Shown one piece after another: positions 137-32,510 of a stretch of DNA of 32,635 bases; positions within the stretch are counted from its first letter, which is position 1; every line of letters starts with the position of its first letter. Made by a program: the position numbers and the translations under genes. The notes under the pieces are model-generated. The model saw nothing but the letters and a program-made list of their open reading frames with translations, did no database searches and had not been told where the DNA came from. Origin of the DNA: Magnetococcales bacterium (GTDB lineage: Bacteria > Pseudomonadota > Magnetococcia > Magnetococcales > JADFWU01); NCBI GenBank assembly GCA_015234045.1, contig JADFWU010000037.1, forward strand, positions 1 through 32,635. The letters run 5' to 3'.

Positions 137-769
137 TCAGCAAACGATCCCTTTATCCAAATAGTGTTTAGCCGCTTGCAAACAGTCGGGACTATTGATA
201 TTGAAAAAAGGGTCCATCTCCTTATCAGATTTCTGGAAACGCACTACGCTGTGGTCATGATCCCGCAACCACCATTTTATTGCGCGCTGATCGTCATCAA
301 GCGCCTGCTGAATAAGAGGCAACACAGCCCGTGGCCAAAGCCCAACCACCGGATGAACCCGTTCACCACTTTGCGCCACTGAAACTTGAGTTTCAGTCAA
401 TAATCCAGAGGCCAATCTATTCACTAAATCTTTTGGGAAAAAAGGTGTGTCCGTAGCGACAGTGACATACCACGGTGCCTTGTGAACCAACATCACCGAT
501 TCCAGTCCTGCCAGTGGTCCCATATGTCCCGAACGATGATCAGCGACAACAGACACCTCCAGCATACTGAAGTTATCTGGATCACTATTTGCACTGATCA
601 CGACACGTTCTACTTGCGGCTTCAGACGCTCATACACATGAACAATGAGCGGCTTACCAGCCAATGTGATCAAGCTCTTTTCCTGTCCACTCATGCGCCG
701 TGACAAACCACCGGCCAGCAAAACACCCACAGTTTGACTGATATCAATCAACGGGCCTGGACCACTCAT
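137..769 (-). CDS. mobA: Molybdenum cofactor guanylyltransferase MobA
   Basis: MobA transfers GMP from GTP to molybdopterin, giving the MGD form used by DMSO-reductase-family enzymes in the cytoplasm. The 210-residue length is normal for the family. Near the N-terminus is the nucleotidyltransferase signature LAGGLSRRMSGQEKSL, followed by a GKPLI segment. The metal-binding Asp lies in ATDTPFFP around residue 106, and a GPLAGLES segment precedes it. A serine replaces the glycine that usually follows RM in the signature. It is the last gene of the minus-strand Moco operon, 8 bases after moaC. A GAGGA ribosome-binding site sits just before the ATG at 769. MsrP-type enzymes use the cofactor without GMP, so MobA must serve some other molybdoenzyme outside this window. 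Confidence 0.9.
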   Translation of the reverse strand: MSGPGPLIDISQTVGVLLAGGLSRRMSGQEKSLITLAGKPLIVHVYERLKPQVERVVISANSDPDNFSMLEVSVVADHRSGHMGPLAGLESVMLVHKAPWYVTVATDTPFFPKDLVNRLASGLLTETQVSVAQSGERVHPVVGLWPRAVLPLIQQALDDDQRAIKWWLRDHDHSVVRFQKSDKEMDPFFNINSPDCLQAAKHYLDKGIVC

Positions 770-777
770 GAGTTCCT

Positions 778-1263
778 CTATTTGTGCACAAAGTGTCCAC
801 TGCGTCCACCGGATTTTTCCAACAAGCGAATAGCGCCAATCTCCATTTCCCGATCAATGGCTTTGCACATATCATAAATCGTCAGAGCAGCCACCGAGAC
901 AGCGGTCAAGGCCTCCATTTCCACACCAGTCGGACCGGTTGTTTTAACCGTCGCCAAAATGCGTACCTGATGGTGTTCAATATCGGTTTCAAAAGAGAGT
1001 TTAGCCCCGGAAAGAGTCAACTGGTGACACAGCGGAATCAGCATATCCACCCGTTTTGAAGCCATAATGCCTGCCAAACGGGCTACCTCCAGCACATCAC
1101 CCTTGCTCATGGAACGATCGACAATGCGGGTCAAGGTTTCCGGCTGCATGGTGACATACCCTTCAGCCACGGCAACACGAGCGGTATCGGGTTTGTCGGA
1201 CACATCCACCATTCGGCTTGCACCTTGGGCATCAAAATGGGTCAACGGTGGACGCGCATTCAA
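778..1263 (-). CDS. moaC: Cyclic pyranopterin monophosphate synthase MoaC
   Basis: MoaC works with MoaA to turn GTP into cyclic pyranopterin monophosphate, the first step of Moco synthesis. The 161-residue protein has every family landmark: MVDVS near the start, [17 protein letters not shown] in the middle (catalytic Lys), [21 protein letters not shown], and a C-terminal KSGGRSG loop with the second catalytic Lys. Translation probably starts at the TTG at 1263. This start is preceded at six bases by a near-perfect AAAGGAGG site, and the TTG overlaps the stop of the upstream moaE-mogA gene as TTGA, which suggests translational coupling. I see no other reasonable start in this frame. Confidence 0.95.
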
Positions 1264-2330
1264 TGTCCGCCTCCTTTTACCATACGCACGATATGCGGGA
1301 CAAGATCAGCAACTGCCGCCAAACTAAAAGTCGAACCGCGCCGAGAACCGGGCAGATTGACCACCAACGTCTCACCACGTACCGCAGCGACACCACGGGT
1401 TAACACTGCGCTACGTACCTGTTTTAAACCTTGACGTCGAATCTCTTCCGCTACGCCGGGAAGTACCTTGTCACACACAGCCTTTGTTGCCTCCGGCGTT
1501 ATGTCACGAGGACCAGGACCAGTTCCACCAGTGGTGAGAATCAGATTCAGATGGTCTGAATCTGCCCAATTGACCAAGCACTGTTCAATCTGGCCTTGAT
1601 CGTCTGGCAGAATCTCCCGATTGACCAGATCACCACCAAAACCGGCGATCATTTTGGCCAAGGCATCACCACTTGTGTCTTGGCTCAAGCTCCGACTGTC
1701 CGACAAGGTAAGCAGACCGACACGCAGGCCGTTCCAGTCTACTGTCTTATGGTTATGAATATGCCCATGATCTTTATGGTGACCATGGTGGCGGTGTCCA
1801 AGATGTTTACCATGATCCTGAGGGTGGTGGCTTTTCGGCTCTACAGGATGGGTATGAGCCAATCCTTTCAGATCATCCCAATGACATGCAGCGGCTTCAC
1901 AACCGGGACAAATATCCACCCAACGCTCGGTGCCATCAACCAGAAACTCTTTTTTCCAAAAAGTGGCTCGAATTTTCAGGTGGTCAATCACATAACGACA
2001 CGCTTCGAACGCTTCAGCACGGTGGGAAGAAGCGGTGATAACCAGCACGATATTTTCACCCACCTCCAGTCGTCCGATCCGATGGACCACATGAACCACA
2101 TCAACAGGGAAACGTCTCAAGGCATCCGCCTCAACCTGAGCCAATTCCCGTTCAGTCATACCGGGATAGTGTTCCAGTTCAATAGCCGCAACGGTATCAC
2201 CACCATCACCCGGTGTGCTTTCGCGCACGGTGCCAACAAAGAGGGCAATACCGCCCAAAGCAGCCCCCCCTTGAGTTGCCTGCTTCAACTCGTCCTCAAC
2301 GGAGAAATTCTCCCTCTGAACACGGATCAT
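1260..2330 (-). CDS. moaE: MoaE-MogA fusion with Cys/His-rich linker
   Basis: One 356-residue reading frame joins two Moco enzymes. Residues 1-138 are the large subunit of molybdopterin synthase (MoaE). They include the ALFVGTVR segment, [16 protein letters not shown], and the active-site lysine stretch [11 protein letters not shown] at 118-128, where the usual Pro before WKKE is changed. Residues 141-149 carry three cysteines (CPGC then C149). Residues 159-194 hold 15 histidines in a low-complexity linker. Residues 200-356 are a MogA/MoaB-type molybdopterin adenylyltransferase with [15 protein letters not shown] at 266-280. The two activities act at successive stages: sulfur insertion into the pterin, then its adenylylation before Mo insertion. 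The linker resembles metal-binding tails of nickel or zinc chaperones; a role in metal handling is inference. The ATG at 2330 follows a GAGGG site; the gene lies 33 bases after moaD and overlaps moaC by four bases. Confidence 0.92.
1270..1277 (-). promoter_or_regulatory. Ribosome-binding site deciding the moaC TTG start
   Basis: On the minus strand this reads AAAGGAGG, six bases before the TTG at 1263. It lies inside the last codons of moaE-mogA, so moaC translation is probably coupled to the fusion gene. Confidence 0.75.
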
Positions 2331-2363: not shown

Positions 2364-2615
2364 CTATCCACCACTCACTGGCGGGAAAATGGCAATTTCA
2401 TCCTGATCCTTCACAGGCGTTTCAGGGTCAGCGTGAACCTGATTGACCGCAACTTGCAAATGACTTCCCTTAAGGGCTTCTTCATACGGTGCGCCCTTAT
2501 CGCGCAGATAGTTTAACAGCGTTTCAACGGTATTAACCCCTTCTACAAGCTCAATTTGTTCCGCACCCTGACCAATACGTTCTCTAACCCAAGCAAAATA
2601 GAGCACATCAATCAT
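2364..2615 (-). CDS. moaD: Molybdopterin synthase sulfur carrier subunit MoaD
   Basis: MoaD is the small ubiquitin-like subunit of molybdopterin synthase. Its C-terminal glycine is adenylated and thiocarboxylated, and it donates sulfur to cyclic pyranopterin in complex with MoaE. The 83-residue product starts MIDVLYFAWVRERIG and ends in FPPVSGG, with the essential terminal Gly-Gly exposed. DEIAIFPPVSGG is the typical last strand and tail. I chose the ATG at 2615 because the family begins at this hydrophobic strand; a TTG nine codons upstream is open but unlikely. It sits 33 bases before its partner moaE and follows moaA in the minus-strand operon. Confidence 0.92.
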   Translation of the reverse strand: MIDVLYFAWVRERIGQGAEQIELVEGVNTVETLLNYLRDKGAPYEEALKGSHLQVAVNQVHADPETPVKDQDEIAIFPPVSGG

Positions 2616-2661
2616 TTTATATTTTCCCATTAAGACAAACAAACCTACTCAACCTGAAAAA

Positions 2662-3740: not shown

Positions 3741-6700
3741 CTATTCGGAGACACCGCCACGCACAGGCAATACGTTGAGCCCATTGGATTTCGGGCTCAT
3801 CCAGATCGATGAATTAGAGCCAAAACGAACCGTCCAAGCATCGGAAGTAAAAACCGAACCACTGGTAGAGGTCCAAAAGTAATTGCTGTCAAAGTTGACG
3901 AAAGGATGACCGCTTTCAATGAAGTCAGTCTCGCCAAAATTGATCAGACTGTGTAGTTCTCGACGATTGGGAATACGCCAATCTCCAGCGGAAGAGCCAT
4001 CGGTTAGAGAGCATGCGCCTTCAGCCAATGCCTGAGTTTCGGTAAAAGCCGTAGTCCAATCTTTATTGGTAATGCAATTACCATCCTGAAGCCAGATGAG
4101 TCCGGTCACATTGTCTGTGACGGTTCCGTCACCATTGTCATTGAGCCGCACGGTTGGCCATGCGGCTCCGTTTTGGCTGGAAGCGTCGTCACCGGTTAGC
4201 AGGCTGGTGGTCTGGCCAGTTTTATGTAGGCCTACTGTACCGGCTGATCCGCTGTCACGAACAAGCCAGGCACTCAAGGTAACGTTGGTAGCTGTTCCGC
4301 TGCTGCGGTCATAAGCACTCGATGGATAGCCATAATTGGTATCAATGGTCCATGCTTTGCTGTTGTCCTTGGCAAAGTAGGTGGAGGTCCAGAAATAGGA
4401 GTTACCTGGCACCTCAAAGGGATGACCAGCCTCAAGGGTAGGTGTGCCCTGCCCCATATCCATCAGACTTTCCAACTCCACAAAATTAGGCATCCGCCAT
4501 TGTCCTGCTGTGGAACCATCAGTCAAACCGCATGTGCCATCAGCCATGGTGGAAGCGCTGGTAAGGGCATCATTCCAACTGATACTGGTCAAACAGGTTG
4601 AATTCTTCAGCCAAACCAGTCCGGTCTGAGCATCCAGAACCGTACCATCCCCTTGATCCGTAAAACGTGGTGAGCTTGCTGCTACGCCTTTTTGGTACTC
4701 TCCATCATGTCCGCTGCCATCACAGGTAATTTCCGCCCAACTGTCATCAAAACACCGGGTCTGTCCAGTTTTTGCCAACAACGGCTGAACTGACTCGCTG
4801 ATAGTCAAAGTATGCGCGGTATTATCACCCAAAGAGGCATTGGCATCAGGTGCCCCCAAGGTAACGGTAATGGTCTCACCGGCATCGGAAGTGGGATAGT
4901 CTTGCACCACAGCGATACGGATTGTGGCTGAACTGCTTTCCGGGGCAATGGAGAGCGGAGAAGTGGTAACAACCGTATAATCATCGTTGAGAGTCGCATC
5001 ATTGCTGGTAACCGAGAACGGCAGACTCAGAGTGCGACTGCTGAGTCCAGACAACGTAACGGGAATAGCAATTTTTCCTCCTTCATAGCCATTCTGAGAG
5101 GCCGAGGCAACGTTAATCTCCGGCTCCGGGTCGTCATCCTGGATGGTGACAGTAGCAGTGGCAGCGTCCAGAGAGGCATTTGTGGGAGAAGAGAGTGTGA
5201 TGGTGATAGTCTCGTCAGGTTCATCCACCGAATCATCAAGAAGAGAGAGGGTGATGGTACCGCTGGATTCACCACTATTAATAGTGAGGGTGTTGCTGCT
5301 GGCTGTATAATCAGTACCAGCCACGGCAGTGCCATCACTGGTAGCGTAATTCACTGTAATGGTGTTGGCTGCAACAACGTTGAGTGAAACACCGACATCC
5401 ACCGTATTGCCTTCACTTTGAGAAGCGCCAGTGATGGTCAACGTTCTAGGCACCGGGTTTACGGTGACTTCGACATTATCGCTGTGGGTGGCAAAAAGAT
5501 TGTCCGTAACGGTGAGCTGAAAAACCAATGTCTCAGCGCTGGCTACGGTAGGCGCGGTAAAGCTGACTGAACTGGTTGCACCACTATCGGAAAGAGTAAC
5601 ATCGGTTCCACTGGTCTGGGTCCATTGATAGCTGCTGATGGTCCCGTCACTGTCTGTTGAGGCGGCTGCGGAAAGGGTGATGGTACTCGCTTCGTCCACG
5701 CTTTGATCACTGCCTGCATTTGCCACCGGGTCTACGTTGGCAGGTTCAGTTACTGTTACTTGGATAACTGAATCCGCGCTGGCTTTGCCATCACTCGCCG
5801 TAAGAGTGACATTGAGTGAACCAGTGACATCGCTCTGAGCACTGAACTGCAATTGCCAATTGCCAGAACTTGTTTCGGTCAGACTCAGATCAGCATCACG
5901 CACCAAACTCTGGTCAGAGCTTGTCACCGAAAGAGTGGGCATGTCGCCAGCGTCATCATCACTCAGGGTAAAGGACACTGGATCTGTAGCAGAACCACTT
6001 TCCATTATAACGTTGGCAGCACTGCCAATCACCGGAGCACTATTCGCCGTATCAGTAGGAGCATTCTGCTCTTGAAGTATCGCTAAAAGATCATCGCTGT
6101 TCAGACCGCTTCCCTGTTGATAAAGAAGCAACGAACCCGCTAGAAGAGCATCACCAAGGCTACTGTCGATCTTGCCCGCAGTGACGTTGGTCATCACGGT
6201 CTGTCTTTCGGCATCAGCACTGGTTTGCAAACCAGTAATAGTGGTCAGCATGGTGCTGGCATCGTTCCGAGGCAAGGTCCCATCACTACTCATCTGGCTG
6301 TTAAGGTCTTGCAACTGGATACGAATATTTTGCAGATTGGTGAAGGTATCTCCACTCTGCTTGGCCATCTCAATAACGTTGTCTAACGCAACAATGGCCT
6401 GTTCTGTTAGTTCCTTGTTTACCGGTTGATTATCAAGTTTGCTGCTGGCAGTGGCAATATCCAAGGACACATCAGCGTTACTTGTGGTCTCGGAAATCGC
6501 CTGAGCCATATTGGTCCGGGTATCGTCCGCACTCAGACTGGTCCGCGTGGTGCCATCGCCACCGGTGGTGATAGTCAGATTGTCCGTGAGTAGTTCCAAA
6601 GTGAGATCCACCATGTGGGCCTGGATCTGTGCGGCAAAAAGTGCGCCATCCACACCCAACACGCCGGTATTGATAGCGCTGTTGCTATTGGCACCGTTGA

Positions 6701-7376
6701 TTGCGCCATCCGCCATGTCTGTGGCAAGAGCAGAGAGTGCCGCATCGAAGCGGGTGCTATCCACACCGCCGATGACTCGGCGAACCAATTCTGCGGTGGT
6801 CTCCATGGCACGCAGGGAAGAAGCTGCGTTGTCGCCGTCCATGGTGCCGGTGATGGGATCAAAATCGGTATCCTCACTGGTAGCACCAAAGTTAAACTGA
6901 CGCATAATGCTGGTAGAAGCACTTGAGAGATCACTCGCGGATGGCGTATTGCTGCCCGACTGGGCAATGGCCGTTTGTACGATCAGGCTGGTCAGAGTGC
7001 TGATGTTAACCGTATTAACACTGCTGCTTGAGGCCATACTTGTAAAAGTGGTCTCATTGACCCGATTGCTGGTGAGATCCTGACCACCTGCCGCTTCAAA
7101 CGTGAGCGGATAGGTACACTCATTGGGAACAGTAAAACTGTACCGCGCATCATCACCAGTAGTAACCGCCGAACCACAAAGACTGGCATCTGCGTTTTTC
7201 ACAGTAATGGTTGCACCATCAAGAGGGCCGTCACTCACGGTTCCTTTAACGACAGTATCTTGTTTGTGGCTGAAAACACATGCGCTCATCGACAGCGTCA
7301 TTGCTGTTGCCAGGGCCAAAATTTTTGTACGTCTCAGCTGTTTTCCATTACGCAGAATTTTGGTTGATAAAGACAT
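3741..7376 (-). CDS. Large surface lipoprotein with PKD-like, Calx-beta and twin DUF1566-type domains
   Basis: A 1211-residue envelope protein. The N-terminus is positively charged, then hydrophobic, and ends in LSMSAC, a plausible lipobox with lipidated Cys33. Residues about 40-100 look like a carboxypeptidase-regulatory-type beta domain (VKGTVSDGPLDGATITV). Residues about 110-430 are rich in Ser/Thr/Ala and probably helical. Next come an Ig/cadherin-like domain (about 445-550, NSAPVIG to VTVTEP), a PKD/REJ-like domain (about 553-648, VANAGSDQSVDE), two Calx-beta-like domains (about 649-870, with DGTAVAGTDY and DEPDETITITLSSP), and two copies of a DUF1566 (Lcl C-terminal) type domain (about 871-1211). 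Each DUF1566 copy contains GLVWL or GLIWL, a WRMPN or WRIPN motif and YFWTST. Adhesion or matrix binding is inference. The ATG at 7376 follows an AAGGGA site. Downstream it almost abuts moaA, with no functional link visible. Confidence 0.8.
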   Translation of the reverse strand: MSLSTKILRNGKQLRRTKILALATAMTLSMSACVFSHKQDTVVKGTVSDGPLDGATITVKNADASLCGSAVTTGDDARYSFTVPNECTYPLTFEAAGGQDLTSNRVNETTFTSMASSSSVNTVNISTLTSLIVQTAIAQSGSNTPSASDLSSASTSIMRQFNFGATSEDTDFDPITGTMDGDNAASSLRAMETTAELVRRVIGGVDSTRFDAALSALATDMADGAINGANSNSAINTGVLGVDGALFAAQIQAHMVDLTLELLTDNLTITTGGDGTTRTSLSADDTRTNMAQAISETTSNADVSLDIATASSKLDNQPVNKELTEQAIVALDNVIEMAKQSGDTFTNLQNIRIQLQDLNSQMSSDGTLPRNDASTMLTTITGLQTSADAERQTVMTNVTAGKIDSSLGDALLAGSLLLYQQGSGLNSDDLLAILQEQNAPTDTANSAPVIGSAANVIMESGSATDPVSFTLSDDDAGDMPTLSVTSSDQSLVRDADLSLTETSSGNWQLQFSAQSDVTGSLNVTLTASDGKASADSVIQVTVTEPANVDPVANAGSDQSVDEASTITLSAAASTDSDGTISSYQWTQTSGTDVTLSDSGATSSVSFTAPTVASAETLVFQLTVTDNLFATHSDNVEVTVNPVPRTLTITGASQSEGNTVDVGVSLNVVAANTITVNYATSDGTAVAGTDYTASSNTLTINSGESSGTITLSLLDDSVDEPDETITITLSSPTNASLDAATATVTIQDDDPEPEINVASASQNGYEGGKIAIPVTLSGLSSRTLSLPFSVTSNDATLNDDYTVVTTSPLSIAPESSSATIRIAVVQDYPTSDAGETITVTLGAPDANASLGDNTAHTLTISESVQPLLAKTGQTRCFDDSWAEITCDGSGHDGEYQKGVAASSPRFTDQGDGTVLDAQTGLVWLKNSTCLTSISWNDALTSASTMADGTCGLTDGSTAGQWRMPNFVELESLMDMGQGTPTLEAGHPFEVPGNSYFWTSTYFAKDNSKAWTIDTNYGYPSSAYDRSSGTATNVTLSAWLVRDSGSAGTVGLHKTGQTTSLLTGDDASSQNGAAWPTVRLNDNGDGTVTDNVTGLIWLQDGNCITNKDWTTAFTETQALAEGACSLTDGSSAGDWRIPNRRELHSLINFGETDFIESGHPFVNFDSNYFWTSTSGSVFTSDAWTVRFGSNSSIWMSPKSNGLNVLPVRGGVSE

Positions 7377-8114: not shown

Positions 8115-8224
8115 AGCGACATCAAGGCTCTACAAGTGGATTGCAGTCTCTGGCGATGAGTTGAGATTTAGCGACATCAAGGCTCGACAAGTGGATTGCA
8201 GTCTCTGGCGATGAGTTGAGATTT
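8115..8224. repeat. 55-bp tandem duplication (two units)
   Basis: The unit at 8115-8169 (starting AGCGACATCAAGGCTC, ending GTTGAGATTT) is repeated at 8170-8224 with one mismatch (T versus G after GGCTC). The duplication lies between the dispersed repeat and the 3' end of the next minus-strand gene. The near identity suggests a recent event, and copy number may vary. Confidence 0.9.
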
Positions 8225-8268
8225 AAAGTCGCATTCTAAGGCATTGTGCAGCTCGCACAGACCACCCT

Positions 8269-20216: not shown

Positions 20217-20783
20217 CTACAGCAAATACTTCATAGCAGCAATAACAGCGCCTGAGCCAGCCACAACCACACCAAACGTCCAAATCATCAGACGATCCAT
20301 TCGCTTACTCAATTCAAAAAACCGCATATCCATACTTCGCTGCACTTCAACAAAACGCGCATCCACCTGCTCAAAGCGCTTGTCTATCTGATCTAAGCGC
20401 CGCTCCACCTGCTCAAAGCGCTTATCCACCTGCTCAAAGCGCTTATCCACCTGCTCAAAGCGCTTATCCATCTGCTCAAAGCGCTTATCCATCTGCTCAA
20501 AGCGCTTATCCACCTGCTCAAAGCGCTTAAACACTTCATCGAAACGGTTATCCACCTGCTCGAAACGCTTATATATATCTTCAAAGCGCTTATCCATCGT
20601 GGCGAAGCCTTGCTGCATCAACTCTCTTTGATGCGCCAACTCTCCTTCAACGCGCACGATACGTTCTCGAATTTCCATTTCAAACATATCGCGGGAATAA
20701 GGCAAAGAGCGTTCACCAGACAGTTCCGACCAGCGATTTTGGACGGTATCAACGATAAGCTGTTCAATCTCTGCGCGTTCCAT
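20217..20783 (-). CDS. Heptad-repeat coiled-coil protein with C-terminal membrane anchor
   Basis: The 188-residue protein has an N-terminal domain (1-60, RAEIEQLIVDTVQNRW) and then about 12 heptads of the type KRFEQVD at residues 66-150. A single membrane segment (IWTFGVVVAGSGAVIAAMKYLL) follows at 167-188. The DNA behind the heptads is a near-perfect 21-base tandem repeat (plus-strand unit CGCTTATCCACCTGCTCAAAG). It probably forms a long homo-oligomeric rod tethered to the inner membrane; the function is unknown. The ATG at 20783 is preceded by GGAATAGG. It resembles small DUF1640- or tail-anchored coiled-coil proteins that often occur as paralogs, but I cannot assign a family with certainty. 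Confidence 0.72.
   Translation of the reverse strand: MERAEIEQLIVDTVQNRWSELSGERSLPYSRDMFEMEIRERIVRVEGELAHQRELMQQGFATMDKRFEDIYKRFEQVDNRFDEVFKRFEQVDKRFEQMDKRFEQMDKRFEQVDKRFEQVDKRFEQVERRLDQIDKRFEQVDARFVEVQRSMDMRFFELSKRMDRLMIWTFGVVVAGSGAVIAAMKYLL
20349..20600. repeat. 21-bp tandem repeat array inside the coiled-coil gene
   Basis: About twelve units of the consensus CGCTTATCCACCTGCTCAAAG on the plus strand, with the central units almost identical. Each unit encodes one heptad. Such arrays expand and contract by slippage or recombination in whole-heptad steps. Confidence 0.85.
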
Positions 20784-29181: not shown

Positions 29182-29589
29182 ATGAAAGCACACAACAAAC
29201 CCCATAGTTTCTGGTCTTTGACCGCACTTTTTATCGCTCTATGTGGACTCTGTTTTTCTGGCTCCGCGCTTGCCCATCCCGGCGGATTGGATAAGAAGGG
29301 ATGTCACACTAATCACAAGACATCTGACTATCACTGTCACCAGAAAGCAGACAAAAAAACAGACAAAAAAACAGACAAAGAGTCTGATCACAAATCCAAA
29401 AAAGACAAACGCGCCAAGAAGAAAAATGAGAACGATGACAAAGAGGATCAAGAGAAGAAAGATAAACTAGACAAGCAGCAGAAAAAGAGCAGCAAAGATA
29501 AAGACAAAAAGAAAGAAAAGAGCAGCAAAGATAAAGACAAAAAGAAAGAAAAGAGCAGCAAAGATAAAGACAAAAAGGACGAGAAGTAA
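29182..29589 (+). CDS. Secreted Lys-rich protein with YHYH-like motif and 11-residue repeats
   Basis: A 135-residue exported protein. A signal peptide (1-31) ends in GSALA before HPGG. The short motif HPGGLDKKGCHTNHKTSDYHCH (with Cys41, His42, His45, His51, Cys52, His53) is the type found in YHYH-domain proteins and could bind metal. Residues 54-135 are almost entirely Lys, Asp, Glu, Ser and Gln. They end in three copies of an 11-residue unit (KSSKDKDKKKE) encoded by a 33-base tandem repeat at 29485-29583. I chose the ATG at 29182 for its GAGGAAA site. The function is unknown; the charged tail may bind wall polymers, nucleic acid or polyanions. Confidence 0.75.
   Translation: MKAHNKPHSFWSLTALFIALCGLCFSGSALAHPGGLDKKGCHTNHKTSDYHCHQKADKKTDKKTDKESDHKSKKDKRAKKKNENDDKEDQEKKDKLDKQQKKSSKDKDKKKEKSSKDKDKKKEKSSKDKDKKDEK
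29485..29583 (+). repeat. 33-bp tandem repeat, three units
   Basis: The units at 29485-29517 and 29518-29550 appear identical, and the third (29551-29583) differs in its last two codons. They keep the reading frame of the secreted Lys-rich protein and encode an 11-residue unit. Confidence 0.9.
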
Positions 29590-31619: not shown

Positions 31620-32510
31620 ATGAAAAACGATGAAGCCATTACTCCAGAATCCGTATACCTGAACCGCCGTAAATTCATTAAAACCGGTGTCACTGCCTTA
31701 GCGGCTGCTCCGCTGGCACTCTCCGCCCCCAACCTGCTTCACGCCGCAGAGAGTGAAGATAAGCCGACCGATTATGAAGAGATCACCAGTTACTGTAACT
31801 TCTACGAATTGGGCTCTCGGAAAAAAGATCCTGCCAAAAACGCCCACTGGCTGAAAACCGAACCCTGGTCTGTGGTAGTAGATGGTGAAGTCAACAAGCC
31901 AGGCACCGTTCCCCTTGAGACATTGCTGAAACCACACACACCCCAGGACCGCATCTACCGCATGCGTTGCGTTGAGACCTGGTCAATGGTCATCCCTTGG
32001 CAGGGCATCCCTTTGGCAGACATTCTCAAGCGATTTGAACCGACAGAAAAAGCCCGCTATGTTTCATTCGAAACCTTGCTGGACCCGGACACCCTCAAAG
32101 GCCAAGAGCGCCCTATCCTGGAGTGGCCCTATCGCGAAGGATTGCGCCTGGATGAAGCCATGCATCCACTGACCTTGATAGCCACAGGCCTCTATGGAAA
32201 ACCCCTACCCAACCAAAACGGTGCGCCACTACGGCTTGTCGTGCCGTGGAAATATGGTTTCAAAAGCATTAAATCCATTGTGCGTATCACACTGACCACC
32301 GAACAGCCGTACACCTCCTGGAACCATCATGGGCCCAATGAGTATGGATTCTACGCCAACGTCAATCCCGATGTGGATCATCCGCGTTGGAGTCAGAGTA
32401 AAGAGCGACGTATTGGAGAATTTTTTAAACGGGATACACTGATGTTCAATGGATACGGCGAAGCGGTTGCCCATTTATATAAAGGCATGGATTTGAAGCG
32501 TTATTTCTGA
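31620..32510 (+). CDS. msrP: Protein-methionine-sulfoxide reductase catalytic subunit MsrP (YedY)
   Basis: A periplasmic molybdoenzyme of the sulfite oxidase fold that reduces methionine sulfoxide in proteins. The 296 residues begin with a twin-arginine signal (NRRKFIK, Arg16-Arg17, then [11 protein letters not shown]). The molybdenum-coordinating cysteine is Cys117 in [15 protein letters not shown]. Later landmarks are [33 protein letters not shown] and the C-terminal MFNGYGEA. It is a little shorter than E. coli MsrP. CGGAG precedes the ATG. The cofactor is the non-nucleotide form, supplied by the Moco operon at the left. Its heme partner MsrQ is not seen in the ~120 bases left before the window ends. 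Confidence 0.93.

Follow-up and report, generated by a model that had tools for sequence, protein, structure and literature searches.

A gene of the Magnetococcales contig JADFWU010000037.1 raises the question of what is gained when two successive enzymes of molybdenum cofactor (Moco) synthesis, MoaE and MogA, are carried on one chain, and what the Cys/His-rich segment between them is for. The whole 32,635-nt stretch that was analysed is called the window, and its features are listed in table 1. That one protein combines MoaE and MogA, as an earlier note had proposed, is borne out by an intact 356-aa ORF without internal stop in which both Pfam domains score above their cut-offs: MoaE (PF02391) at residues 4–119 (E 2.6e-36, 124.7 bits versus a cut-off of 23.4, profile positions 1–112 of 114) and MoCF_biosynth (PF00994) at residues 207–340 (E 4.1e-25, 88.6 bits versus 26.6). 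A frameshift or assembly artefact was ruled out, because the same one-frame fusion is intact in 41 other genomes.

Among solved structures, the N-terminal half came closest to MoaE of Burkholderia and of E. coli, and the C-terminal half to Thermus MoaB, Aquifex Mog, gephyrin G and Cnx1G (fold match 2is8; PDB 1uuy also among the matches). Lys119, Lys126, His103 and Arg104 of the MoaE half, aligned to E. coli MoaE (1fm0), and the motif GGTG..PRD.TPEA, Asp243 and Asp276 of the MogA half are kept in at least 95% of the 42 fused proteins; the former we take to be the catalytic positions of E. coli MoaE, and the Asp residues of LPDD and PRD.TPEA are presumably those of MogA. Membership of the two families predicts both activities. 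Against the NCBIfam MogA equivalog NF006932 the MogA half reached 124.5 bits, below the curated cut-off of 158, and only the MoaB part of the bifunctional MoaC-MoaB model NF002947 was matched (134.6 bits versus a cut-off of 285). No MoeA domain was found in the protein by Pfam, and it is thus not a MogA+MoeA chain of the gephyrin/Cnx1 type. The AlphaFold2 model of the fusion had a mean pLDDT of 87 and a pTM of 0.53.

Table 1. Features of the fusion gene and its cluster in the window.
Feature	Position	Strand	Basis or remark
moaE::mogA fusion gene	1260..2330	minus	intact 356-aa ORF, ATG start
MoaE domain, residues 1–139	1914..2330	minus	Pfam; alignment of 42 homologues
MoaE C-terminal tail, residues 140–154	1869..1913	minus	CPGC 141–144; predicted helix 142–154
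His-rich stretch, residues 159–194	1749..1856	minus	HTH at 159–161 and variable tether
MogA/MoaB (gephyrin-G-like) domain, residues 199–356	1263..1736	minus	Pfam, NCBIfam, structure matches
moaA	2662..3708	minus	Pfam, NCBIfam
moaD, partner subunit of the MoaE domain	2364..2642	minus	Pfam, NCBIfam
moaC	778..1263	minus	Pfam; TTG start
mobA	137..769	minus	Pfam, NCBIfam

The genes are arranged on the minus strand in the order moaA-moaD-moaE::mogA-moaC-mobA, and the start codon of moaC overlaps the stop codon of the fusion (TTGA), which suggests translational coupling. The fusion is the sole MoaE match and the sole MogA-type match in the genome, and we read it as the functional copy. Two further PF00994 loci comprise frames of 419 aa (on another contig) and 287 aa; assigned from size only, the longer is likely to be MoeA and the shorter is read here as CinA-like. 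Three molybdopterin oxidoreductases are encoded in the genome, which implies a need for the cofactor. No Moco riboswitch was detected in the window at Rfam gathering thresholds. An Oxidored_molyb (sulfite-oxidase-fold) gene at the window end (31620–32510, plus strand) is a candidate cofactor user. Directly upstream of the moa genes, positions 3741–7376 (minus strand) encode a predicted secreted protein of 1211 aa with PKD, Calx-beta and two Lcl_C (DUF1566-type) domains.

The fusion is order-wide in Magnetococcales. Besides the host it was found intact in 41 genomes, 40 of them Magnetococcales (41 of 48 genomes of the order, host counted); in G042 it is split by a frameshift, the six Magnetococcales genomes without a full match are 57–82% complete, and every one that is at least 83% complete has the fusion. 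A named Magnetococcales record (L031) carries the same fusion, as does G048, which belongs to a different order and is the sole genome sampled from it. Among the matches listed for 398 Pseudomonadota genomes there were no further MoaE-MogA fusions, MoaE and MogA lying in non-joining frames. This absence applies to the Pseudomonadota sampled; the scan of named genomes, which used short exact peptides that distant fusions may escape and found one other fusion, is no proof of absence outside Pseudomonadota. The order MoaE-linker-MogA, which the earlier note took to be non-standard, is indeed unusual: no paper describing it turned up in the literature that could be searched, and in our sample it occurs only in Magnetococcales and the one genome of another order.

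Across Magnetococcales the fused proteins are only about 50–62% identical, and in the homologue genomes the gene adjoins moaC, often moaD too. The MogA tree unites 41 fused rows and G048 in a single clade (100/98), which includes the frameshifted G042 and has the stand-alone MogA of G170 as its neighbour (97/93). The MoaE tree gave the same grouping with weaker support (SH-aLRT 89), and 41 of the 42 fused rows still grouped, at 87, once the tail had been cut off. These trees point to a probable single origin of the fusion. A 367-aa ORF of a Deltaproteobacteria/Myxococcota MAG (L081) is an apparent MoaE-MobA fusion, the MobA part of which was read by eye only.

The earlier note had described three Cys (141–149) and 15 His in about 36 residues as one joining element. 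The counts hold, Cys being at 141, 144 and 149 and residues 159–194 including 15 His, but the segment divides into a CPGC motif, which lies in the MoaE tail, and a separate, disordered His tether. When the linkers of the 42 fused proteins were compared, CPGC (C141, C144) was constant in 41 and the tether hypervariable. The position of Cys149 is occupied elsewhere by Ser, Thr, Gly or others and is thus species-specific, so that a three-Cys site at 141/144/149 was ruled out. In the alignment to E. coli MoaE, CPGC takes the place of Arg140-Glu-Ser-Asp143 at equal length (E. coli segment RWVEA-RESD-QQAAKRW); the fusion has Cys141 where the E. coli-type tail has Arg140, a place that varies in other MoaE too, and the tails of 18 stand-alone Pseudomonadota MoaE are of the ordinary kind, mostly RxSD-like. 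A literature search on MoaE Arg140 returned nothing relevant. Downstream of CPGC, at least two further Cys or His are present in 41 of the 42 fused proteins, in many as HxH some 15 residues beyond the second Cys and in other families as His...Cys-His; Trp151 is kept in 36 of 42, and residues 142–154 are helical in the AlphaFold2 model. Judged from this pattern, CPGC and the downstream His/Cys probably make up a candidate soft-metal (Zn2+ or Cu+) thiolate site. One fused MoaE-MogA (L118, from G044) is a natural deletion that lacks CPGC, the linker Cys/His and nearly the entire linker, which means that the CPGC/His element is not indispensable and makes this protein useful as a natural control. 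A search of the DNA of the 398 Pseudomonadota genomes with the pattern WVxCxxCxAAAxH gave no matches, the pattern being too narrow and missing WVxxCPGC.

In the linker after CPGC, 16 of 54 residues are His, as compared with 2.7% of those in the two domains (binomial probability about 6e-13), and the other ORFs of the window have at most five His per 36 residues; the enrichment is therefore not due to chance. Low-complexity repeat expansion was ruled out, since no tandem repeat was called in the gene and the His codons are mixed (11 CAT and 5 CAC in this linker, 181:153 over the 42 homologues), which excludes a simple trinucleotide expansion. Over the homologues, the linker after CPGC measures 9–121 residues with 0–40 His (mean 17% versus 3% in the domains), and 21 of the 42 linkers are individually improbable for their His content. 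Residues 158–194 are disordered in the AlphaFold2 model. In L120 and L122 the linker after CPGC is only 10–11 residues long, and these short linkers, together with L118, indicate that the long His tether is not essential. Nothing relevant was found in the literature on His-rich Moco proteins. The variable His run may confer low-affinity metal capacity or only solubility.

Comparable tails were found on MoaE that are not fused to MogA. In a biased sample of 134 such proteins, 34 have a Cys no more than 12 residues after the tail WV and six have CxxC at that place, five of the six with at least two His as well. The stand-alone MoaE of a gammaproteobacterial genome (L177), with moaD directly upstream and no MogA domain behind it, falls among gammaproteobacterial MoaE and outside the fused clade, and its tail, which begins DCPGCRAGAHGQAHQHHHH, is of the CPGC/His type shared with the fusion. 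L173 and L203 are MoaE-MoeB fusions (PF02391 + PF00899, ThiF), and L205 and L207 were recognized as such by eye; like the protein studied here, they have a Cys/His tail followed by a second Moco enzyme, which is MoeB and not MogA. WVNCxxC is present in three of these four, His in addition in L173, L203 and L205, and in L173 WVNCERC is followed by a His-rich linker; some of the four have a rhodanese-like C-terminal part. The MoaE-MoeB fusions come from the classes to which L092 (Chromatiales) and L033 (Obscuribacterales) belong, and their MoaE is a lineage separate from the MogA-fused clade. Cys/His-rich tails, as read from the sequences, recur in separate MoaE lineages, in trees of few columns that do not separate convergence from old inheritance for the tails. 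Because similar tails occur on unfused MoaE, creation of the linker by the fusion event was ruled out; given those on MoaE-MoeB as well, the element that resembles a metal site is part of MoaE and not of the junction, and it is not specific to MoaE-MogA coupling. A long Cys/His-rich C-terminal tail was also observed on the stand-alone MoaE of L091 and L097 (Alcanivorax, Alloalcanivorax), reading GCCIRPD...HPDHHRVHHCDGDHS in L091, with a MogA/MoaB-type domain just downstream in another frame.

The reading we favour, with somewhat better than even confidence, is a bifunctional Moco enzyme with a disordered tether and a putative Zn/Cu site at CPGC. The MoaE half, together with the separate MoaD encoded in the operon, would produce molybdopterin (MPT), and the MogA half would adenylylate it to MPT-AMP for MoeA. 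MoaE is dimeric and MogA trimeric, so that a fusion of the two would have to form a mixed assembly; MoaE dimers and MogA trimers on a mostly disordered tether may build a higher oligomer, as in gephyrin, predicted to be a D3-type hexamer of three MoaE dimers and two MogA trimers, and MPT might be released near the next active site, for channelling or for simple protection. A precedent for such proximity is Cnx6, the MoaE orthologue of plants, which touches Cnx1 in vivo (PMC5694649). The tether would start as MoaE's own C-terminal helix, with the putative metal site beside the mouth of the MoaE active site. The proposal is based on the domains, the catalytic residues, the sole copy, the order-wide conservation and the invariance of CPGC, all established from sequence, and from these we infer the oligomer, channelling, metal binding and the identity of the metal. 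Copper on MPT has been described in Cnx1G (Kuper 2004, as cited in PMC11434336; PDB 1uuy), and by this analogy copper is an attractive guess; a tie of the linker to Mo, Cu, Zn or Ni supply, which the earlier note also raised, is hypothetical. Against the favoured reading, Cnx6 meets Cnx1 at the E domain, not at the MogA-like G domain; L118 and the short linkers of L120 and L122 do without a long His tether; the MogA half is under the equivalog cut-off; and the tails on unfused MoaE and MoaE-MoeB speak against a function bound up with the hand-over from MoaE to MogA.

Gephyrin, Cnx1 and NIT-9 likewise join successive Moco enzymes by a lineage-specific linker despite the dimer/trimer mismatch, and product-substrate channelling has been proposed for them, as here for MoaE-MogA. 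They join the MogA-like G domain to the MoeA-like E domain of the next step, whereas here MogA is joined to MoaE of the previous step and the MoeA domain is absent. To our knowledge, none of the three has a CPGC or a His-rich linker. For gephyrin, channelling between the fused G and E domains is credited to Belaidi and Schwarz 2013 (as cited in PMC11489736). Mycobacterial MoaX also contains MoaE in a fused Moco protein, but its partner is MoaD. The MoaC-MoaB protein (NF002947) has a MogA/MoaB-family domain behind another Moco enzyme, as here; that enzyme is MoaC, which in the window is a separate downstream gene.

A neutral, operon-born fusion would leave the two enzymes independent, with the linker as a spacer for dimer and trimer and its His richness as drift. 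The free variation of linker length and His count, the disorder of the tether in the model and the loss of the whole element in L118 are in keeping with this; the retention of CPGC in all but one of proteins so divergent, the His enrichment of the linkers, many of them individually improbable, and the similar tails of unfused MoaE are not, and we regard it as unlikely. The CPGC/His tail could instead serve MPT synthase in redox chemistry or sulfur handling and not as a metal site; its thiol pair might, for example, protect the MoaD thiocarboxylate or the nascent dithiolene, or re-sulfurate either. MoeB and rhodanese handle MoaD sulfuration, and the CxxC tails of the MoaE-MoeB-rhodanese-like fusions favour such a role, as does the location of CPGC at the tail start, at the place of E. 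coli Arg140. We nevertheless judge it improbable: the downstream His/Cys, which redox chemistry does not need, are kept with CxxC in nearly all proteins, and a thioredoxin-like fold is absent.

Separation of the halves after translation, leaving ordinary MoaE and MogA, would find an easily cut substrate in the disordered linker and a precedent in MoaX, for which cleavage is required for activity (PMC4326299); but cleavage of MoaX frees the C-terminal glycine of MoaD, which is encoded here by a separate gene, and nothing in MoaE-MogA requires it, which makes this course highly improbable. Very doubtful, too, is a bolder claim about the tail, namely that it forms a module of MPT synthase which recurs, having evolved in several MoaE lineages and persisted in fusions with MogA or MoeB, and which loads or protects metal. 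Such a module would hand Cu+ (or Zn2+) to the newly made dithiolene ahead of adenylylation and would be an in vivo source for the copper on MPT in Cnx1G.

To the known fusions MogA-MoeA, MoaD-MoaE and MoaC-MoaB the protein adds one that joins the steps of MPT synthase and MPT adenylyltransferase, is apparently undescribed and is fixed throughout an order, and it is a concrete protein for asking about the source of dithiolene copper and about MPT channelling. Should the tail bind no metal, the protein would be an ordinary tethered fusion.

Elsewhere in the window, a 55-bp repeat in two copies (8115–8225, 98% matches) and a perfect 33-bp Lys-rich repeat in 2.9 copies (29483–29577) are covered by no listed ORF of at least 180 aa, and a 21-bp tandem repeat in 11 copies (20361–20596) lies within a predicted coiled-coil ORF (20217–20783, minus strand).
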